A model generated the notes under the pieces. It worked only from the letters and a program-made list of their open reading frames with translations, searched no databases and had not been told where the DNA came from. Below are positions 1,492 to 8,739 of a stretch of DNA of 9,050 bases, piece after piece. Position numbers and translations under genes: made by a program. Origin of the DNA: a candidate division WOR-3 bacterium (GTDB lineage: Bacteria > Hydrothermota > UBA3072); NCBI GenBank assembly GCA_039804165.1, contig JBDRZZ010000038.1, forward strand, positions 1-9,050, written 5' to 3'. The number at the start of each line of letters is the position of its first letter. Position 1 is the stretch's first letter.

Positions 1492-1527
1492 ATCAAATTT
1501 TGACATAAAAATATCAAATTTTGACAT
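1492..1527. promoter_or_regulatory. Tandem palindromic operator, two copies 21 bp apart
   Basis: The 15-bp sequence ATCAAATTTTGACAT occurs exactly twice, at 1492-1506 and 1513-1527. Inside each copy is a perfect 11-bp palindrome, TCAAA-T-TTTGA, at 1493-1503 and 1514-1524. The centres are 21 bp apart, two turns of B-DNA, so proteins bound to both sites would sit on the same helix face. The second copy touches the first base of the candidate -35 box at 1527. A weaker relative, TCAAAGTTGA, lies at 1362-1371. The arrangement fits a dimeric transcription factor, either an activator next to -35 or a repressor. No regulator gene of an identifiable family is in the window. Confidence 0.6.
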
Positions 1528-1556
1528 TGACTGAGGGATTGGAGGTGGAATATATT
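1527..1556 (+). promoter_or_regulatory. Sigma70-like promoter of the peptide operon
   Basis: The candidate -35 box is TTGACT (1527-1532) and the -10 box is TATATT (1551-1556), separated by 18 bp. Transcription would start near 1562-1565 and leave a leader of about 30 nt before the precursor ATG at 1594. The 18-bp spacer is slightly long and the -10 is not the full consensus, so activation by a factor bound at the adjacent palindromes is plausible. TTGACA also occurs inside both upstream repeats (1500-1505 and 1521-1526), but neither has a good -10 at 16-18 bp. Confidence 0.5.
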
Positions 1557-1580: not shown

Positions 1581-1588
1581 AGGAGGTG
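1581..1588 (+). promoter_or_regulatory. Strong ribosome binding site of the precursor gene
   Basis: AGGAGGTG lies five bases before the ATG at 1594 and is nearly a full complement of the 16S rRNA 3' end. It is among the best Shine-Dalgarno sequences in the window and much better than that of the downstream radical SAM gene. That fits a small peptide needed in excess over its modifying enzymes. It also fixes the start codon of this otherwise overlooked 55-codon gene. Confidence 0.8.
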
Positions 1589-1593
1589 TAAGG

Positions 1594-1761
1594 ATGTTTA
1601 TAGAGATGATTCCTTTATCAAGTACCTCTATTGACCCAGGGTTATTTGCAGAAGAAATGGCAGTGCCAGCCCTCCCTGCAGTCATTGTCGAAGCAATTAT
1701 TTACAGTGCTATAGGTGTGGTTATTTATGAAGCAGTAGAGATTGCGTTTGAGAAACTCTAA
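1594..1761 (+). CDS. Candidate RiPP precursor peptide, 55 residues
   Basis: A 55-codon ATG-to-TAA frame with a strong ribosome binding site and its own promoter region, placed directly before radical SAM and PqqD-like genes. I recognise no known precursor family. Residues 1-23 (MFIEMIPLSS..., then DPGLFAEEMA) are the likely leader. Residues 24-55 are hydrophobic, rich in Ile, Val and Ala, and end EIAFEKL. There is no Cys, which argues against sactipeptide or other thioether chemistry and against cysteine-derived azoles. Three related hexads occur: VIVEAI (30-35), IIYSAI (35-40) and VIYEAV (43-48). Pro25 and Pro28 in AVPALPA mark a possible leader/core boundary. The beta-branched residues could be substrates for C-methylation or epimerisation, and the two Tyr are other possible targets. 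An alternative is a small membrane-associated helix protein unrelated to modification. The coding call is firm on context; the RiPP role is inferred. Confidence 0.72.
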   Translation: MFIEMIPLSSTSIDPGLFAEEMAVPALPAVIVEAIIYSAIGVVIYEAVEIAFEKL

Positions 1762-1927
1762 AGTTCTAAACCTGTATGAGAGAAAATTATTTCAGAAGTA
1801 ACGAGGGAGAAGGAAGTATTTATTTTTAAACTTTTACAAGTTATTGAAAAAGTTATAGTTTTTTACTTAAAGAGAGGAAGAAGTAGTATTTTATGACGGC
1901 GGAAGTGATTTATTATAAGAGTGAAAA

Positions 1928-3379
1928 ATGAGGAAATGGATATTATTAATACAATTACATTCAACATCTTTGTTAAGCATTGGTAGTAAAGGAAGATATA
2001 AATTTCCCCCTTTAGGACTTCTTTGTATCTCTTCTATGTTGCGTTTACATGGATATGTAGTTCGGATAATAGATTTATTATCTTTTGGAAAAAATACTTC
2101 TTATCTTTTAAAAAGAATTAGAGACTTAAAAGAGAAACACAAGATAGATCCTCTAATATCAGGATTTACAGTTTTTACTGAAAATGTTAATGATGCAATA
2201 ATTACTTCCATTGAACTGAAGAAAATATTTCCTAAAACTCTTATAGTATTTGGTGGAGCTCATGCAAAAGCAGCATATGAAGAACTACTTCAAAATGGAG
2301 CGGCTGATATTGTAAGCTTGGTAGAAGGAGAGGGACACATTTTAGAAATAGCAAAATATGCTGAAGGGTTAATCTCATTAGATGAAATAAGGGGAATCGC
2401 TTACTTAAAAGACGGACACATAGAAGTAAATGACAGATTTTTCTTGCACGATTTGGATCTACTTCCCTTGCCAGATTTTTTGAATGTGAAATATTCAAAT
2501 TACAGACAGGTAGGCATTCTGGTCACATCTCGCGGGTGTCCTGGTAGATGTATATTTTGTGCATCAAGACAATTTTCGGGCAGTAAGTATAGAGCATCCA
2601 GTGCAAAAAGAGTTTTTGCGGAGATAATGTTTTTGTATCTTTATTTTAGAATAAAAGACTTTGGAATAATGGACGATACATTTACAGTGCTGAAGAAAAG
2701 AACAAAGGAATTCTGTATGCTCTTGAAAAGACACTTGAAAGAAAAAATAGGATATGCAATAAAAAGTAGGGTAGATTTGTTAAATGAAGAGACTCTTTCT
2801 TATTTAAGAGAGACTAACTGTAGTGCCATTCACATAGGGGTAGAGAGTGCTGATAATAAAGTCCTAAAAATAATGAAGAAAGGAATCACAATAGAAAAAA
2901 GTTTAGATATAATTGAAAAAATTGCAAGCTTTGGTATTGTGCCAGAGTGTTCTTTTATTATAGGTAATCCCGGCGATACTCCAGAGACAATATATAAAAC
3001 ATTATTCATGGTATATCTTCTCAATAAATATTTTATTCTTTATCCCCCCGCAGCAGTAGCAATTTGCACTCCTTATCCTGGCACTGAATTAGCTTTAAAT
3101 TATAAAAATTTTGAAATGAATATAATAGTTAAAGATTGGCGAAGATACGATTCTATACAACCTATATTTGAAACAAAAGATTTTTCAGCGGCCTTTATAA
3201 GAGAGACTATGTGGAACTTCAATCGTGATCCAAATTCTTTTATACAAAAAATTAAGAAAGAACATCCTTCACTGGAGGACTTTTATAACCGAATTGAAAA
3301 AAAGATTAAGAATGCCGCAGAAAAATATATGGAAGCTAGAAAGGAAGATGTTAAAAAATGTATTCCCTTGAATATCTAA
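1928..3379 (+). CDS. Cobalamin-binding-type radical SAM enzyme
   Basis: A 483-residue cytoplasmic enzyme with the architecture of B12-dependent radical SAM proteins. The N-terminal 150 residues resemble the B12-binding Rossmann fold: PPLGLL near 27-32, HGY at 41-43, then FGGAHA at 108-113 and VEGEGH at 132-137. The DxHxxG ligand motif of classical base-off B12 proteins is not evident, as is common in this group. The radical SAM core begins at TSRGCPGRCIFC, giving the CX3CX2C cluster ligands Cys204, Cys208 and Cys211. IMDDTF (247-252), IHIGVESADNKVLKIMKKGI (301-320) and IIGNPGDTPET (344-353) are typical barrel motifs. Family members perform C-methylations and other radical modifications, some on RiPPs. 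No SPASM domain is present. The ATG has only a weak AAGAG site and overlaps the stop of a 12-codon frame (ATGA). Its substrate is inferred to be the 55-residue peptide. Confidence 0.88.
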   Translation: MRKWILLIQLHSTSLLSIGSKGRYKFPPLGLLCISSMLRLHGYVVRIIDLLSFGKNTSYLLKRIRDLKEKHKIDPLISGFTVFTENVNDAIITSIELKKIFPKTLIVFGGAHAKAAYEELLQNGAADIVSLVEGEGHILEIAKYAEGLISLDEIRGIAYLKDGHIEVNDRFFLHDLDLLPLPDFLNVKYSNYRQVGILVTSRGCPGRCIFCASRQFSGSKYRASSAKRVFAEIMFLYLYFRIKDFGIMDDTFTVLKKRTKEFCMLLKRHLKEKIGYAIKSRVDLLNEETLSYLRETNCSAIHIGVESADNKVLKIMKKGITIEKSLDIIEKIASFGIVPECSFIIGNPGDTPETIYKTLFMVYLLNKYFILYPPAAVAICTPYPGTELALNYKNFEMNIIVKDWRRYDSIQPIFETKDFSAAFIRETMWNFNRDPNSFIQKIKKEHPSLEDFYNRIEKKIKNAAEKYMEARKEDVKKCIPLNI

Positions 3380-4674
3380 AATTAAAAAGCCATATACATG
3401 CAAAAAACTTAAAGAATGGAGAGCTTCTTCTTTTAGACACTAAAACAGGGATATGGTTAAAAACATCTTTTTCTTTTAAAAAGCTATATAATATAATAAA
3501 AGAAGGAACTACAATGAACGAAGTTAAAAAAGTAATAACAACCTTATATCCAGGAAGAGAAAATGAGGCAGAAATTTGTCTCGATTCTTTAAGAATCAAT
3601 GGATTCTTAGAAGGTTTTGAATCGACTATTCTTCAACCTTTAAATGAGATAAGGCCTATTCGAATTATTTGTGATTTTTCAGCAAACAAAAAATTACTAA
3701 GAGAGTTTTTACTAAAAAATTTTGAAAATATTCCAATAGAATTAGTATACGAGTATAATAATCACATAAATAAAGATAAGATTAAGGTAGACTATCCTAA
3801 TGTTTATCCTTCTAACATAGAGCTTGTTTTTAGAGTGGATTGGAACATGCTGAGAAAAGAAACTATAGATGAATTTGATAATAATATTTCGAATATTTCA
3901 ACTATTCAAATAAATTTCAATGATTTTGAAAGCGACCAAGATAAAATAAATGAAAAAAGGAGACTTATAGAGTTTATAATAAAAGAAAAAAAAGTTGAAC
4001 TTAGATATGCGATAGCTGCCTTTTATAAGAAACGAAAAAAGGAGAAGGATCTTACTTTGCCTCTTATTCTCATGCCTCATGTTTCTTATTATTTCACTGG
4101 TGAAGAAATTTTTCATTTCCATAATGGAAAAGATCGATATAAGTATTTTATTTTTTGGGTTAAAACAATGAATAAATTTTACCAACTTTTCAGTATGGGA
4201 GCAAAAGCCCTTGTAAAATTTTCAAGTGGGAACCTCCTTCCAATGATTGTTTTCTCTCGTATCTTAAAAGATTCATGTGGAGCTGGTATAACAAACTTTT
4301 ATATTGATAAGAATGGAAATATCTATCCATGTAAATATTTAGATAAATTTCCTATGGGGAATATTAACTCTTCATCTCTTATTTTCTTTAATAAATATTC
4401 TTATACAAGATATCCTACCTGCAACGAGTGCCCTTTACTTAGAGTATGTAGCAGATTATGTTTAGCACTACATCAAGAAGGATTTTCAAAAATCTGTAAA
4501 TTTTATAAGGGTTTTTTAATCGCATACATATCAGCAATTCCAATAAAAGCTATAAAAGAGTTATCACGCATTGAGGGAAAATCAAATGATTCAGAGTTTA
4601 AAAGTTTCTCTAAAGCAAAAGAAGAAGTCAAAAGATTTAATAGAAGGTGTCTATGTCCAATAGGAACATTTTAA
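3358..4674 (+). CDS. PqqD-like/SPASM fusion with cysteine-less radical SAM core
   Basis: The 438 residues appear to form three parts. Residues 10-90 resemble PqqD and the RiPP recognition element (HIHAKNLKNGELLLLDTKTG, then a helical region ending NGFLEG). Residues about 98-300 read like a worn radical SAM barrel: PIRIICDFS stands where the first strand and CX3CX2C loop belong, but no cluster cysteines or GGE motif follow. Residues 155-222 (VDWNMLRKETIDEF, IQINFNDFESDQDKI) still resemble the later TNG and SLDG strands. Residues 307-380 are a complete SPASM motif: Cys307-X12-Gly-X4-Cys325, Cys355-X2-Cys358-X5-Cys364-X3-Cys368, then Cys380. This would bind two auxiliary iron-sulfur clusters. 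The tail adds CLC at 431-433. It should not cleave SAM itself; a scaffold, electron-transfer or peptide-presenting role is inferred. It starts inside the preceding gene (22-nt overlap) with AAGGAAG ten bases upstream. Confidence 0.8.
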   Translation: MYSLEYLKLKSHIHAKNLKNGELLLLDTKTGIWLKTSFSFKKLYNIIKEGTTMNEVKKVITTLYPGRENEAEICLDSLRINGFLEGFESTILQPLNEIRPIRIICDFSANKKLLREFLLKNFENIPIELVYEYNNHINKDKIKVDYPNVYPSNIELVFRVDWNMLRKETIDEFDNNISNISTIQINFNDFESDQDKINEKRRLIEFIIKEKKVELRYAIAAFYKKRKKEKDLTLPLILMPHVSYYFTGEEIFHFHNGKDRYKYFIFWVKTMNKFYQLFSMGAKALVKFSSGNLLPMIVFSRILKDSCGAGITNFYIDKNGNIYPCKYLDKFPMGNINSSSLIFFNKYSYTRYPTCNECPLLRVCSRLCLALHQEGFSKICKFYKGFLIAYISAIPIKAIKELSRIEGKSNDSEFKSFSKAKEEVKRFNRRCLCPIGTF

Positions 4675-4952
4675 CAATTTCTCCCCTTGCCCTAACATGG
4701 TATGAAGATAACGAAGGAGTAGTTATTGTAGAAAATTATTATAATAAAAGAAAAGTCTTTTTGGATGAGCAGGAACTTTCAACATTATGGAAAATTATAA
4801 TTGAAAATTCTGATTACCAAAAAATAGAGGAAAATTTTTGCTCCTTATGGAGCAGAGAAGACTTTAAGCGTTGCTTGAATTTATTAAAAAGAGCCGGTAT
4901 TATAAAAATTAATTTTACGAAGGAGGGCTCAAATGAAGGGGCAAAGTCTTGA
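4653..4952 (+). CDS. Stand-alone PqqD-like protein (probable RRE)
   Basis: A 99-residue protein with the outline of PqqD/RiPP recognition element winged helices: a beta-rich start (residues 5-37, SPLALTWYEDNEGVVIVEN), a helical middle with ELSTLWKIII (41-50), and a final helix-turn LNLLKRAGIIKI (75-86). Such proteins bind RiPP leader peptides and deliver them to modifying enzymes. The ATG at 4653 is preferred over a GTG two codons upstream because AGAAGG (4642-4647) lies five bases before the ATG. It overlaps the SPASM fusion gene by 22 nt. It is the second PqqD-like module in the operon, so one may serve the cobalamin-type enzyme and the other the SPASM pseudoenzyme. Similarity is by overall pattern, not a diagnostic motif. 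A small winged-helix DNA-binding protein is a possible alternative. Confidence 0.6.
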   Translation: MSNRNILTISPLALTWYEDNEGVVIVENYYNKRKVFLDEQELSTLWKIIIENSDYQKIEENFCSLWSREDFKRCLNLLKRAGIIKINFTKEGSNEGAKS

Positions 4953-5145
4953 TAAAGCTAAAAAAGGAGACTATATATTATTGACCACCAAGTCTAACCT
5001 TACCTTTGCAGGAACAATAGAAAGGGTAGAAGAGAAAGAGAGGGAGCGACTAATAGTATTCCAACCCTCAAAAGATTCGCCATTATGGATAATAGTAGAA
5101 GAAAGTTTTATCCAGAAATTGAAAGTATTAATATCGTCAGAATAA
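4933..5145 (+). CDS. Small beta-rich protein, possibly SH3/Sm-like barrel
   Basis: I do not recognise this 70-residue protein. After a short basic start it is mostly predicted strand: GDYILLTTKSNLTFAGTIER (12-31), RLIVFQP (39-45), LWIIVEES (51-58) and KLKVLI (62-67). The strand-turn-Gly pattern (TFAGTIERVEEKE) resembles small Sm-like or SH3-like barrels. There is no signal peptide, membrane segment or Cys, so it is likely a soluble cytoplasmic protein. Its ribosome binding site is strong (AAGGAGGG at 4920-4927, five bases before ATG) and sits inside the end of the PqqD-like gene, a 20-nt overlap. The overlap and signal imply production coupled to, and perhaps above, the modification enzymes. 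It could be an accessory chaperone, a peptide binder or an immunity factor; none of these is shown by the sequence. Confidence 0.7.
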   Translation: MKGQSLDKAKKGDYILLTTKSNLTFAGTIERVEEKERERLIVFQPSKDSPLWIIVEESFIQKLKVLISSE

Positions 5146-5154
5146 AAAGGAAAG

Positions 5155-6105
5155 ATGAGGAAAAGAGAGATATGCTTTCTTTTGGCATTGATAGCTTTCT
5201 CCCTCTATGGCAAGGATATTGTAAGACTAAATGAGCTCTCAAGTGTGGGAGGGAAGTTTGTTATCTTAAATAATTCTATTTATACCTTTGACACGAAGGA
5301 GTACTCATTGAAAATTTTCTCCTTTAATGGGAAGTTAATTCTAAGCAAATCAATAAGAGGGGAGGGTCCAGGGGAAGTTTCAACTATGGGATCCTTTATA
5401 GCTCAGAGCGGAGAAAATATATTGATTCTGGAGACAATCAAAAAGAAGTGGATTGAATTTGATAGCAATTTAAAGTTTCTAAGAGAAGGCAGGTTTGAAG
5501 AACCAATTACTATTATCAAAAAAATCGGTAAATTTTCAGTAGGAGGAGTTGCAGGATTAGAGGAGGGCAAATACAGTAGAAAAATCTATTTGCTTTCCGA
5601 AAATTTTGACATAAAAAGAGAAGTTTACAAAGAATATAGTAAATATTTAAAAAATAGAATGGACGCCAATGAATTTTATATTACCTTGGACACCATAGAT
5701 ACACTTATTGCTTTTGGTAGCGGGAGCAAAGGAAAGGTTAAAATAATAGATATTAATGGAGATTTGAAAAAAGAGCTTGAGATAAAGATAAAGCCCACAA
5801 AATATGATGAAGATAGTCTTTATACTATGCAAAAGCTCTTGCCTTCGAGAGTTAAGGATCTTGTAAAATTTGAAACCTACCCATTAATCTTTCAAGTTAT
5901 CTTCACTTCAAAAGATGAACTTTTAATTGTTTCAGGGAATGTAATGAAAAATAACCAAGCAAAAAGCTACCTTTATAATCTTAAGAGTCAAAAAATGGTA
6001 AGTGCAACAATTCCAATGGGTATTTTGAGTTATCATAAAAATGCTTTATTTATAATGAGTGAAGATGAAAATGGTTGTTTTTTGGAAAAAGTTAAACTTA
6101 GATAA
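5155..6105 (+). CDS. Exported 6-bladed beta-propeller protein
   Basis: The 316 residues begin with a Sec signal peptide: MRKREI, a hydrophobic stretch CFLLALIAFSLYG (7-19), and probable cleavage near Gly19. The mature part is a series of short strands and turns. It carries RGEGPGEV (68-75), close to the GxGPGEF hallmark of exported 6-bladed beta-propeller proteins found in Bacteroidetes and some other diderm lineages. Blade-like units include YTFDTKEYSLKIFSFNGKLI (43-62), ILETIKKKWIEFDSNLKFLR and KIIDINGDLKKELEI. There is no catalytic motif, so binding is its likely role. It sits between the RiPP-type genes and an ABC transporter, suggesting that it receives, senses or sequesters the exported product in the periplasm (inference). 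AAAAGG at 5145-5150 precedes the ATG by four bases. The gap to the previous gene is nine bases. Confidence 0.75.
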   Translation: MRKREICFLLALIAFSLYGKDIVRLNELSSVGGKFVILNNSIYTFDTKEYSLKIFSFNGKLILSKSIRGEGPGEVSTMGSFIAQSGENILILETIKKKWIEFDSNLKFLREGRFEEPITIIKKIGKFSVGGVAGLEEGKYSRKIYLLSENFDIKREVYKEYSKYLKNRMDANEFYITLDTIDTLIAFGSGSKGKVKIIDINGDLKKELEIKIKPTKYDEDSLYTMQKLLPSRVKDLVKFETYPLIFQVIFTSKDELLIVSGNVMKNNQAKSYLYNLKSQKMVSATIPMGILSYHKNALFIMSEDENGCFLEKVKLR

Positions 6106-6108
6106 ACC

Positions 6109-6999
6109 ATGGGAAAGGAAATAGTTATTGAGTTTGAAAATATATCTAAAAAATTTGGTAATATTACAGCGCTAAAGGAGGTGAGTTTTAAAGTTGAAAA
6201 AGGGATAATCTTTGGAATATTCGGTCCCAACGGCGCAGGCAAGACAACTACAATAAGGATCATTGCAGGAATATTGAAACCTGACTCAGGAAGGGTTTAT
6301 ATAAGAAGTGCTAATCTTTCTTACATACCCGAAGAATTAAGTTTATATAAAGAAGAGAAAGTCTTGAACATTCTAAAATACATTCTATCTTTAAAAAAAG
6401 TTCCACAAAAAAGATGGAAAGAAGAGATAGAAATATGGAGTTCTTTGTTGAAAATAGAAGAATTTCTTAAGAGGAGAACAAATGAACTATCAAAGGGGCA
6501 GAAAAGAAAAGTTATGTTTGCAATGTCTTTGTTAGGGAATCCTGAGATAATCATAATGGATGAGCCATTTATAGGATTGGATGTGGAAGCATCCGAAGGA
6601 TTAAAAAAGATAGCATACGACATGAAGGAGAAAGGGAAGACAATTATTTTCTCTACTCACATTCTTGAACTTGCAGAAGAGCTGTGCGAGGAAGTAATTA
6701 TTCTTAAAAATGGCGAAATTATTGAAAGAGGTGGTATGGAAGAACTAAGAAATAAATATACCAGAGGAAACTGGGTTATTCGATATAGTGGAAAGATAGA
6801 TAAAACAGTTTTCCCTGGTAATGAAGTTGAGATACTCGATAATATAATAAAACTCCCATCTGATATTTCTTTAAATTATTTGATAGAAAAGCTGGAAGGA
6901 ATGGTGGAGATAATGGAGATAAAAAAAGAGTATCCTAATTTTAAGGAAATCTACCTGAGGATTTTAGGAGAAAAAGATGAAAGAGATTTACAGCTATGA
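6109..6999 (+). CDS. ABC transporter ATP-binding protein (ABC-2 type)
   Basis: A 296-residue ATPase that powers the membrane protein encoded next. Walker A is GPNGAGKTT (39-47, Lys45), the signature is LSKGQ (127-131), Walker B is IIIMDEP (147-153) with Asp151 and catalytic Glu152, and the switch His is His184 in FSTHILE. The Q-loop position reads YIPEELSLY, where the usual Gln is replaced, as in many ATPases of NatA/CcmA-like ABC-2 exporters. After the nucleotide-binding domain (about 1-215) comes a C-terminal region of about 80 residues typical of this exporter class. There are no membrane segments. The start lies three bases after the propeller stop with no clear Shine-Dalgarno site, so translation is probably coupled. 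The start is right because the domain opens at residue 5 (IVIEFENISKKFG). Likely role: export of, or immunity to, the operon's peptide. Confidence 0.93.
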   Translation: MGKEIVIEFENISKKFGNITALKEVSFKVEKGIIFGIFGPNGAGKTTTIRIIAGILKPDSGRVYIRSANLSYIPEELSLYKEEKVLNILKYILSLKKVPQKRWKEEIEIWSSLLKIEEFLKRRTNELSKGQKRKVMFAMSLLGNPEIIIMDEPFIGLDVEASEGLKKIAYDMKEKGKTIIFSTHILELAEELCEEVIILKNGEIIERGGMEELRNKYTRGNWVIRYSGKIDKTVFPGNEVEILDNIIKLPSDISLNYLIEKLEGMVEIMEIKKEYPNFKEIYLRILGEKDERDLQL

Positions 7000-8122
7000 A
7001 GTTATTAAAATTCTAAAAAAACCATGGTTTTACATGAGTTGTTTTTTTCTGCCCTTCATCCTTCTTCTTGGTTCAGGATTCCCAACATTCCTAATAAACT
7101 ATTTCATAAAAGAGGTAAAAGAAGGAAAGGTATTAATTTCTGGAAATAGAGAAATTGCCCATGAGATTCACAATGAACTTATAAGTTTGGTAGGAAAAAA
7201 ATGGAAGATTAGAGAGGTAAATGATGAAGTGAATTCTTATATGGATAAAGATACAATATTTATAAAGGCAATGGAAAAGGAGATTATTGTAAAGATGAAA
7301 AATAGAGATTTAATAAAGGAAAAGCTCATAGAGAAAGCTATCCAGGGTGCATATCTCAAAGTTTTCCTTACAGAGAAGGGCTTGAATTCACAGGAGATAG
7401 AAAAAATAAAGAAAGGTTTGCCAATTAGAGTGTTAACTGAAAAAAGAAGTGGCAAGGGGAAATATTTTGGACTCATTATTCTTGTTATTTTTTATACTGG
7501 AATTACAGTATATGGGGATTATCTTTCCAGAAGAATCATTATAGACAAAGATACAAATTTTCTTGACATACTCCTTATTTATAAAAATCCTTCTCAAATC
7601 TTCTGGGGGAAATTACTTGCTGTGGATACTTGCTATTTCATATATCTTGGGATAACACTCTCCCTCACCTATTTATTGTTAAAATTTCTTCCCTCTCGTA
7701 TTCCTGATATTATTGCAATTCTTATTTTAAAAGAAATCGATTTGAAATCCTTCCTTCTCATTTTTTTAATATTTTTTATGGCATTTCTCATGTATTCTTC
7801 TTTTTATCTTCTTTCCGGAGTGATATCTCGAACTGAGGATGATTTAAAAGGTGCAAAAAGTATAATAAATTATGTATTGTCATTTTCCCTTCTATTAAAT
7901 GTGGTTTTAATGGCAATACCTCCTATTAAATTAACAAAAGTTCTTTATTATATCCCTCCAGTTTCTCCATTTTCCATGCTTACATTTTTAATGAAAGAGG
8001 AATTGGACACATTAAAATTTGCTTCGGGTTCTATTATAATTATTTTTACAACTATAATTTTTATTAAGATAGCTGGGACAAAATTTGAAAGAAGCTCTTT
8101 ATATGAAAGGAGGATAGGGTGA
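6977..8122 (+). CDS. ABC-2 type transporter membrane protein
   Basis: A 381-residue integral membrane protein with the ABC-2 permease plan: one N-terminal membrane helix (about 18-41), a large soluble domain (about 42-162, Lys/Glu-rich), then about five helices near 163-181, 211-236, 258-281, 297-316 and 350-367. The layout resembles NatB-like permeases, which pair with NatA-like ATPases. DYLSRRIIIDKDTNFLDILLI (181-201) with IFWGKLL (208-214) corresponds to the 'rerun/EKE..T.e.LL..P....ILLGK' coupling region of the family, in divergent form. The gene begins within the last 23 nt of the ATPase gene with TAGGAG six bases upstream. No peptidase domain is fused, so leader cleavage must be done elsewhere. 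The substrate is inferred from context only. Confidence 0.85.
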   Translation: MKEIYSYEVIKILKKPWFYMSCFFLPFILLLGSGFPTFLINYFIKEVKEGKVLISGNREIAHEIHNELISLVGKKWKIREVNDEVNSYMDKDTIFIKAMEKEIIVKMKNRDLIKEKLIEKAIQGAYLKVFLTEKGLNSQEIEKIKKGLPIRVLTEKRSGKGKYFGLIILVIFYTGITVYGDYLSRRIIIDKDTNFLDILLIYKNPSQIFWGKLLAVDTCYFIYLGITLSLTYLLLKFLPSRIPDIIAILILKEIDLKSFLLIFLIFFMAFLMYSSFYLLSGVISRTEDDLKGAKSIINYVLSFSLLLNVVLMAIPPIKLTKVLYYIPPVSPFSMLTFLMKEELDTLKFASGSIIIIFTTIIFIKIAGTKFERSSLYERRIG

Positions 8123-8739
8123 GAATAGCTTTTAAAATATTAATATTTTTGTCTCTTCCATTTCTTCTTTTTCCTCAAGAATCGTTTATAAAGGAGCTTT
8201 GTGAGAAAAGAGAGAAGATGTCTGAGTTCCTGAAAAGTTATAAAGTTGTTGCAAATGTGGAAAATTTTGTATATGATGGAAAAGGAAACTTAATAAGAAC
8301 CGACAAGAAGGATATTGAACTTTATTGGGATGGAAATAAATGGACAGAAAAGGGAGGGAAAGAAATATTAGGAATGACCAGAAAAACTGTTAATCCATTC
8401 AAATGTAATGATGTTTCTTTTTTCCAATATGAAGTCAAAGATTGGGGACAGGAATGGTGCATCCAAGTTAAACTTCTTGAAAAATATCAGGGTTTAGAAG
8501 CAGAGGAAGGAAATTATATTGTATCAAAAAATAGTAGCTATTTTAAAAAAACATTTACAACGCTAACTAAATGTCCTTCGGATTTAAAAAATTTTCAATT
8601 GGAGACAGAGTATGGAGAAATTGGAAAAGGAGTTATCGCACCAATGAAGATGAAAATAGAAACTGATATTGATGAGGAAGCCTATGGAGTAAGCATTAAG
8701 ACGATCTCCATTCTAAATTTTACATATAAAAAAAATTAG
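8119..8739 (+). CDS. Exported protein of unknown function
   Basis: A 206-residue protein starting with GTG inside the permease stop (GTGA at 8119-8122) and preceded by a strong AAAGGAGG (8106-8113). Residues 1-20 (MRIAFKILIFLSLPFLLFPQ) form a signal peptide. The cleavage site is not a classic AxA, and no lipobox Cys directly follows, since the first Cys is Cys28. The mature part is beta-rich: YKVVANVENFVYDGKGNLIRTD, IELYWDGNKW, FQYEVKDWGQEW and a C-terminal strand pair. The pattern resembles half-barrel periplasmic carriers of the LolA/RseB type, but this is a weak resemblance and not a family assignment. Cys28, Cys96, Cys114 and Cys152 could form two disulfides. Cotranscription with the ABC pair suggests that it handles the exported substrate or acts as an immunity protein. 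Confidence 0.65.
   Translation: MRIAFKILIFLSLPFLLFPQESFIKELCEKREKMSEFLKSYKVVANVENFVYDGKGNLIRTDKKDIELYWDGNKWTEKGGKEILGMTRKTVNPFKCNDVSFFQYEVKDWGQEWCIQVKLLEKYQGLEAEEGNYIVSKNSSYFKKTFTTLTKCPSDLKNFQLETEYGEIGKGVIAPMKMKIETDIDEEAYGVSIKTISILNFTYKKN

Follow-up and report, generated by a model that had tools for sequence, protein, structure and literature searches.

Among the closest described systems, the GG-Bacteroidales radical SAM type, represented in the same bin by contig C39, combines a small precursor, a pseudo-radical-SAM-type partner, a propeller and an ABC-2 exporter, and the same elements are found in the window (the whole stretch of 9,050 nucleotides analyzed here). This type has a TIGR04148 maturase and a TIGR04150 pseudo-radical-SAM protein, whereas the window proteins give no over-cut-off match to the former and the 438-aa protein of the window has no match to the latter at E<=1; the catalyst in the window is a B12-dependent radical SAM enzyme (B12-rSAM), and the proposed precursor is Cys-free. 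The apy (aminopyruvatide) and pbs (biphenomycin-like) clusters, in which a B12-rSAM and RRE proteins act on a short precursor, resemble the system proposed for the window, but the window contains no MNIO, P450 or arginase, and ApyD has its own RRE, unlike the B12-rSAM of the window. In the proteusin and bottromycin systems (PoyB/PoyC, BotRMT), a B12-rSAM is likewise paired with a Val/Ile-rich, Cys-poor core, whereas the proposed precursor here is 55 aa with no long leader, and no epimerase, dehydratase or other proteusin enzyme accompanies it. PQQ and mycofactocin cassettes contain a stand-alone RRE-like protein, a SPASM protein and a small precursor, as does the window; the window differs from this type in that its SPASM protein lacks the radical SAM motif, its radical SAM enzyme is B12-dependent, and a dehydrogenase is absent. 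Pseudo-radical-SAM proteins recur in RiPP clusters without an experimentally assigned function, and those of Bacteroidales clusters are hypothesized to act with the radical SAM enzyme, experimental proof being absent (PMC10352776).

Overall organization of the locus

The 55-codon frame is followed by eight tightly packed genes between 1928 and 8739, most of which overlap by 4-23 bp or stand within 10 bp of each other. The features, with the genes in operon order, are as follows:

1492-1506 and 1513-1527, forward strand: two identical 15-bp direct repeats, ATCAAATTTTGACAT, 21 bp apart, a probable operator
1527-1556, forward strand: sigma-70-like promoter TTGACT-18-TATATT, consensus match only
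1581-1588, forward strand: Shine-Dalgarno sequence AGGAGGTG, with 5 nt spacing to the ATG
1594-1761, forward strand: gene of a 55-aa Cys-free peptide, the proposed RiPP precursor (ATG...TAA frame, Shine-Dalgarno sequence, codon usage)
1829-1864, forward strand: AT-rich stem-loop (11-nt arms, 91%) followed by T6, a possible attenuator, weak (-5.8 kcal/mol, z -1.2)
1928-3379, forward strand: B12-binding/radical SAM enzyme, 483 aa, CX3CX2C at residues 204-211
3358-4674, forward strand: 438-aa pseudo-radical-SAM protein with RRE-like N-terminus, barrel without CxxxCxxC, and C-terminal SPASM domain with the full Cys set
4653-4952, forward strand: 99-aa stand-alone RRE/PqqD-like protein, predicted strands followed by three helices, no HMM match
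4933-5145, forward strand: 70-aa protein, fold not assigned
5155-6105, forward strand: six-bladed beta-propeller, DUF5128, signal-like N-terminus (PF17170, 29 bits against a 22.9 cut-off)
6109-6999, forward strand: ABC exporter ATPase (PF00005)
6977-8122, forward strand: ABC-2 type permease (PF12698)
8119-8739, forward strand: 206-aa protein with N-terminal signal-like segment and GTG start, no family match, possibly the last gene of the operon

The 55-codon frame and its upstream region

The first-pass annotation had pointed to an overlooked 55-codon ATG-TAA frame with a Shine-Dalgarno site, and this frame is present at 1594-1761 on the forward strand, with AGGAGGTG 5 nt before the ATG. It encodes the 55-residue peptide MFIEMIPLSSTSIDPGLFAEEMAVPALPAVIVEAIIYSAIGVVIYEAVEIAFEKL, which contains no Cys and holds 5 Val, 6 Ile and 5 Ala in residues 28-55, in agreement with the Cys absence and hydrophobic Ile/Val/Ala C-terminal half described earlier. 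The peptide has a net charge of -7, and its first Lys/Arg does not occur before residue 54, so that it lacks an ordinary Sec signal. A 19-residue hydrophobic run starts at residue 26 (mean 2.25), the C-terminal helix is amphipathic, and the sequence contains two Tyr residues (Y37 and Y45) together with one E-x3-Y spacing (E33-x3-Y37). The codon score of the frame is 0.27 bits per codon, which exceeds the mean of the neighboring operon genes (0.12-0.24); among 360 non-annotated ORFs, 7 score higher, and at least some of these resemble genuine small genes. When the 896-bp intergenic region was simulated 5000 times with a first-order model, ATG ORFs of at least 55 codons appeared in 8.2% of the runs, and ones that also carried an AGGAGG/GGAGGT Shine-Dalgarno sequence in 0.12%. 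Given the rarity of this ORF length in combination with such a Shine-Dalgarno sequence and the coding-like codon usage, we take 1594-1761 as a real gene.

Directly before the frame, where a promoter and operators had been claimed, a sigma-70-like match (TTGACT at 1527-1532 and TATATT at 1551-1556, 18-nt spacer, 10/12 matches) and two perfect 15-mers are present. In this AT-rich stretch, such promoter consensus sites are not enriched (5, against 4.5 in shuffles), so the promoter takes its weight from its position only. Searched as a regulon motif, the repeat pair gave no copy with fewer than two mismatches in ten other stretches of the same bin. In the gap of 166 bp between the peptide gene and the B12-rSAM gene, an AT hairpin of low stability occurs together with a T6 run; the idea of an attenuator between precursor and enzymes was set aside as weak (z -1.2 for the local hairpin and 0.04 for the whole gap). 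A search against Rfam returned no match.

The B12-radical SAM enzyme and the SPASM protein

The 483-aa enzyme matches PF04055 (88.6 bits) and PF02310 (48.8 bits), both over the Pfam cut-off. It also matches the models of HpnJ, BchE, MCR glutamine methylase and ApyD, all far below their cut-offs, and its reaction thus cannot be read from its family; for the ApyD model (NF050148) the score is 109.8 bits against a cut-off of 750, below the equivalog level. The nearest families, HpnJ and BchE, are non-RiPP families, which counts against the RiPP reading. By its domains and its CX3CX2C motif, an enzyme of the peptide-modifying type (radical SAM) is present in the cassette, with the peptide as its putative substrate. 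Relatives with 30-37% identity were rejected as orthologues, being located mostly in glycan or other contexts, and a scan of the genome contigs with the enzyme gave one remote match.

The SPASM domain of the 438-aa protein is over the cut-off in both PF13186 (25.7 bits) and TIGR04085 (35.4 bits), and its Cys pattern is complete (C...GxxxxC, then CxxCx5CxxxC, then C). CX3CX2C is absent from the 438-aa sequence, so the earlier designation of this SPASM fusion as a radical SAM enzyme does not hold, and the B12 enzyme is predicted to be the sole radical SAM catalyst encoded in the window. Alignment by hhalign with RRE-rSAM-SPASM proteins from relatives covered the full length (Prob 97.5%, E 2.9e-11); locally, the signal arises in the SPASM region (score 73.7, against at most 23.2 in 30 shuffles).

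Every known RRE consists of three helices and a three-stranded sheet (PMC10635010). Single-sequence AlphaFold predicted the topology E-E-E-(E)-H-H-H for the 99-aa protein, at low confidence, and strands followed by helices for the 438-aa N-terminus, in a model whose poor whole-protein pLDDT (42.7) proves nothing alone. Foldseek ranked the lasso-peptide RRE TbiB1 with leader first for the 99-aa model (E 0.18, not significant), and this structure also appeared for the low-confidence 438-aa model (E 0.13 over 67 columns, not significant). With VIA-align, nothing clearly related to the 99-aa model was listed, the sactipeptide-maturase N-termini 5why and 5wgg being among the ties (Z 2.4-2.5). Neither protein matched a PqqD/RRE profile of Pfam or NCBIfam at E<=1, and the RRE assignment is without sequence-profile support (hhalign Prob 3-4%). 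Judged by predicted topology, the 438-aa N-terminus and the 99-aa protein are probable RREs. The downstream genes named in the first-pass annotation were thus confirmed over the cut-offs for the B12-type radical SAM enzyme and the SPASM domain, whereas the PqqD-like gene found no HMM match at E<=1 and is supported by predicted topology only.

A parallel cassette on contig C39

On one strand of C39 (L128:479-6046), a 63-aa peptide gene, a hairpin, a propeller, a TIGR04148 radical SAM enzyme, a TIGR04150 protein, an ABC ATPase and an ABC-2 permease are arranged together. The precursor (5855-6046) is 63 aa and contains Cys, and the hairpin is strong (z -5.9). The maturase scores 438 bits against the TIGR04148 cut-off of 300, the sole over-cut-off match in 147 genomes of the phylum, and the partner scores 340 bits against the TIGR04150 cut-off of 250. 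The window cassette is the C39 skeleton with a different catalyst, and this common layout is the best evidence for the 55-mer as a RiPP precursor.

Several further observations were made around these loci. The C39 cassette, of GG-Bacteroidales type, sits in a bin not assigned to Bacteroidales, and its TIGR04150 protein carries a CxxxCxxC motif (CNQSCEFC), contrary to the family name. On C40 and C49, related propellers adjoin small secreted Cys peptides; the association of a propeller with a small peptide recurs on these contigs. Small secreted-looking peptides are located beside DUF5128 propellers and AhpC/TSA genes at L106:1569-1757, 3698-3895, 3948-4187 and 6400-6588 (reverse strand) and at L129:1481-1693, and three of them show a Cys/Trp/Tyr pattern (CExxYWxC...YxWC-like). 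An identical sigma-54-like site, TGGCATN5TTGAT, occurs at L128:6185-6200(-), L129:1410-1425(+), L106:4240-4255(-) and L106:6720-6735(-), directly 5' of small-peptide genes on three contigs, and is missing from the window. NtrC-family activators are encoded on C39 and C49. These sites and activators hint that peptide-propeller cassettes form a sigma-54 regulon.

Elsewhere in the phylum, many Cys-rich ORFs of 40-98 aa adjoin RRE-rSAM-SPASM-type genes (L159, L160, L161-L163, L165, L168 and L171-L174). In L159 and L160 a maturase is accompanied by a second radical SAM gene, and L159 is weakly similar to the grasp-with-spasm model TIGR04193. In a same-family genome, L060:999-3777 contains a small acidic ORF, two CxxxCxxC genes and a YEKP-leader Cys peptide near a B12-rSAM; its maturase is geopeptide-like (238 bits against 400).

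Homologue searches and origin of the contig

The phylum scans covered 147 to 150 genomes, with pattern scans that detect close relatives only. No Pfam or NCBIfam model matched the 55-mer, consistent with the earlier remark that it could not be placed in a class of precursors already described, and no homologue was found in up to 150 same-phylum genomes (one of the same genus) or in viral contigs; the best match among the 150 relatives (E 0.0036) was rejected, its frame holding two stops. Searches with the 438-aa protein in genome contigs, plasmids, viral contigs and the phylum gave SPASM-confined matches or nothing, with no homologue. Across 147 genomes of the phylum, nothing informative was recovered with the 99-aa, 70-aa and permease genes. 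All matches of the propeller were to other propellers, in its own bin and in one same-family genome. The collections searched contain no homologous gene pair of the cassette, and so no conserved leader was seen. A literature search for a RiPP with a radical SAM enzyme and a six-bladed propeller found nothing.

At the start of the window lies the end of a gene that we read as peptide deformylase-like, and fmt comes next. This fmt, within 1-1031, is a second, divergent copy, 39% identical to the native copy of the bin and 36-43% to the others compared; the native copy, on C6 (L189 4790-5719), is 66% identical to that of the same-genus genome and has the tgt-yajC-like-fmt order. Tetranucleotide similarity of the contig to the bin is 0.906, within the 0.80-0.96 spanned by 9-kb control slices, and is thus compatible with membership in the bin, but the measure discriminates poorly. 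The foreign second fmt points to misbinning of the contig or to acquired DNA on it, so that the searches may have been directed at the wrong phylum.

Proposed function and alternative explanations

We regard the 55-mer as the likely precursor of an undescribed B12-rSAM RiPP class. The gene itself, the arrangement of the operon, the parallel C39 cassette and all domain assignments but the RRE are taken as observed; on this basis we consider it probable that the 55-mer is a RiPP precursor and that the cassette works in the following manner. The acidic N-terminal ~25 residues would form a leader to which the 99-aa protein and/or the RRE-like N-terminal part of the 438-aa protein would bind, and the C-terminal Ile/Val/Ala/Tyr/Glu stretch would be the core, modified by the B12-rSAM. 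The pseudo-radical-SAM/SPASM protein may serve in docking and perhaps as an electron-transfer partner. The product would leave through the ABC ATPase/permease, and the secreted propeller and the 206-aa protein may have extracellular roles in binding or immunity. The earlier view of the 55-mer as the substrate of the downstream enzymes is therefore likely in view of the tight gene overlaps, the RRE-like topology and the C39 parallel, while the modification itself is a prediction; the window shows no evident protease gene, which counts against a precursor.

The core reaction may be C-methylation of unactivated carbons, as proposed by analogy with PoyB/PoyC and BotRMT2 acting on Val/Ile; PoyC and BotRMT2 C-methylate these residues (PMC11285071). 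Since the only radical SAM enzyme is cobalamin-dependent and the proposed core is rich in Val/Ile and has no Cys, C-methylation requires the fewest assumptions, and we place it above cross-linking, at slightly less than an even chance. B12-rSAMs also catalyze cross-linking, ring contraction and C-P/C-S bond formation, so that methylation is only one option.

A cross-link or other rearrangement made by the B12-rSAM on the same precursor, for example at Y37/Y45 or E33-x3-Y37, is unlikely but the strongest of the alternatives. The core holds two Tyr residues and one E-x3-Y spacing, as found in PqqA, but this spacing turns up in 22% of shuffles of the 55-mer. The B12-rSAM PbsB joins ortho-tyrosines in a RiPP (PMC12257519); against this, ApyD, the best-scoring characterized RiPP B12-rSAM model here, is a Tyr beta-methylase.

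Somewhat less credible still is an unmodified small membrane or regulatory peptide, with the substrate of the enzymes encoded elsewhere, as the 19-residue hydrophobic stretch, the amphipathic C-terminal helix, the 166-bp gap before the next gene and the lack of a homologue might suggest; the operon, however, contains no other small ORF with a Shine-Dalgarno sequence except the RRE-like and 70-aa genes, and the C39 precursor occupies the equivalent place. A peptide-derived cofactor of PQQ/mycofactocin type for the secreted propeller, in place of an exported peptide, is very improbable: RRE-like and SPASM proteins and a small precursor do stand beside a secreted six-bladed propeller, and the 55-mer has E-x3-Y, but the operon includes an ABC exporter, related propellers adjoin Cys-rich peptides of another type, and a dehydrogenase is absent. 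That the frame arose by chance within the 5' leader region of the operon, which the absent conservation and the 8% of simulated regions with an equally long ATG ORF would allow, is scarcely credible beside the coding-like codon usage and the merely 0.12% of simulations that pair this length with such a Shine-Dalgarno sequence.

Returning to the 55-mer as precursor, we tentatively suggest, as a possibility short of probable, a split RiPP maturase, in which a B12-rSAM without its own RRE or SPASM domain would work with a catalytically dead RRE-barrel-SPASM partner (docking, auxiliary Fe-S clusters), the substrate being an aliphatic precursor that has no Cys and belongs to a class not yet described. 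What is most original is not the peptide but the combination of the B12-rSAM with the pseudo-radical-SAM/SPASM protein. The Cys-free precursor would stand outside the Cys-rich precursors that dominate the radical SAM-peptide clusters seen in the phylum, and a pseudo-radical-SAM protein beside a B12-rSAM as the apparently only radical catalyst would offer a small system for a direct test of the partner role.
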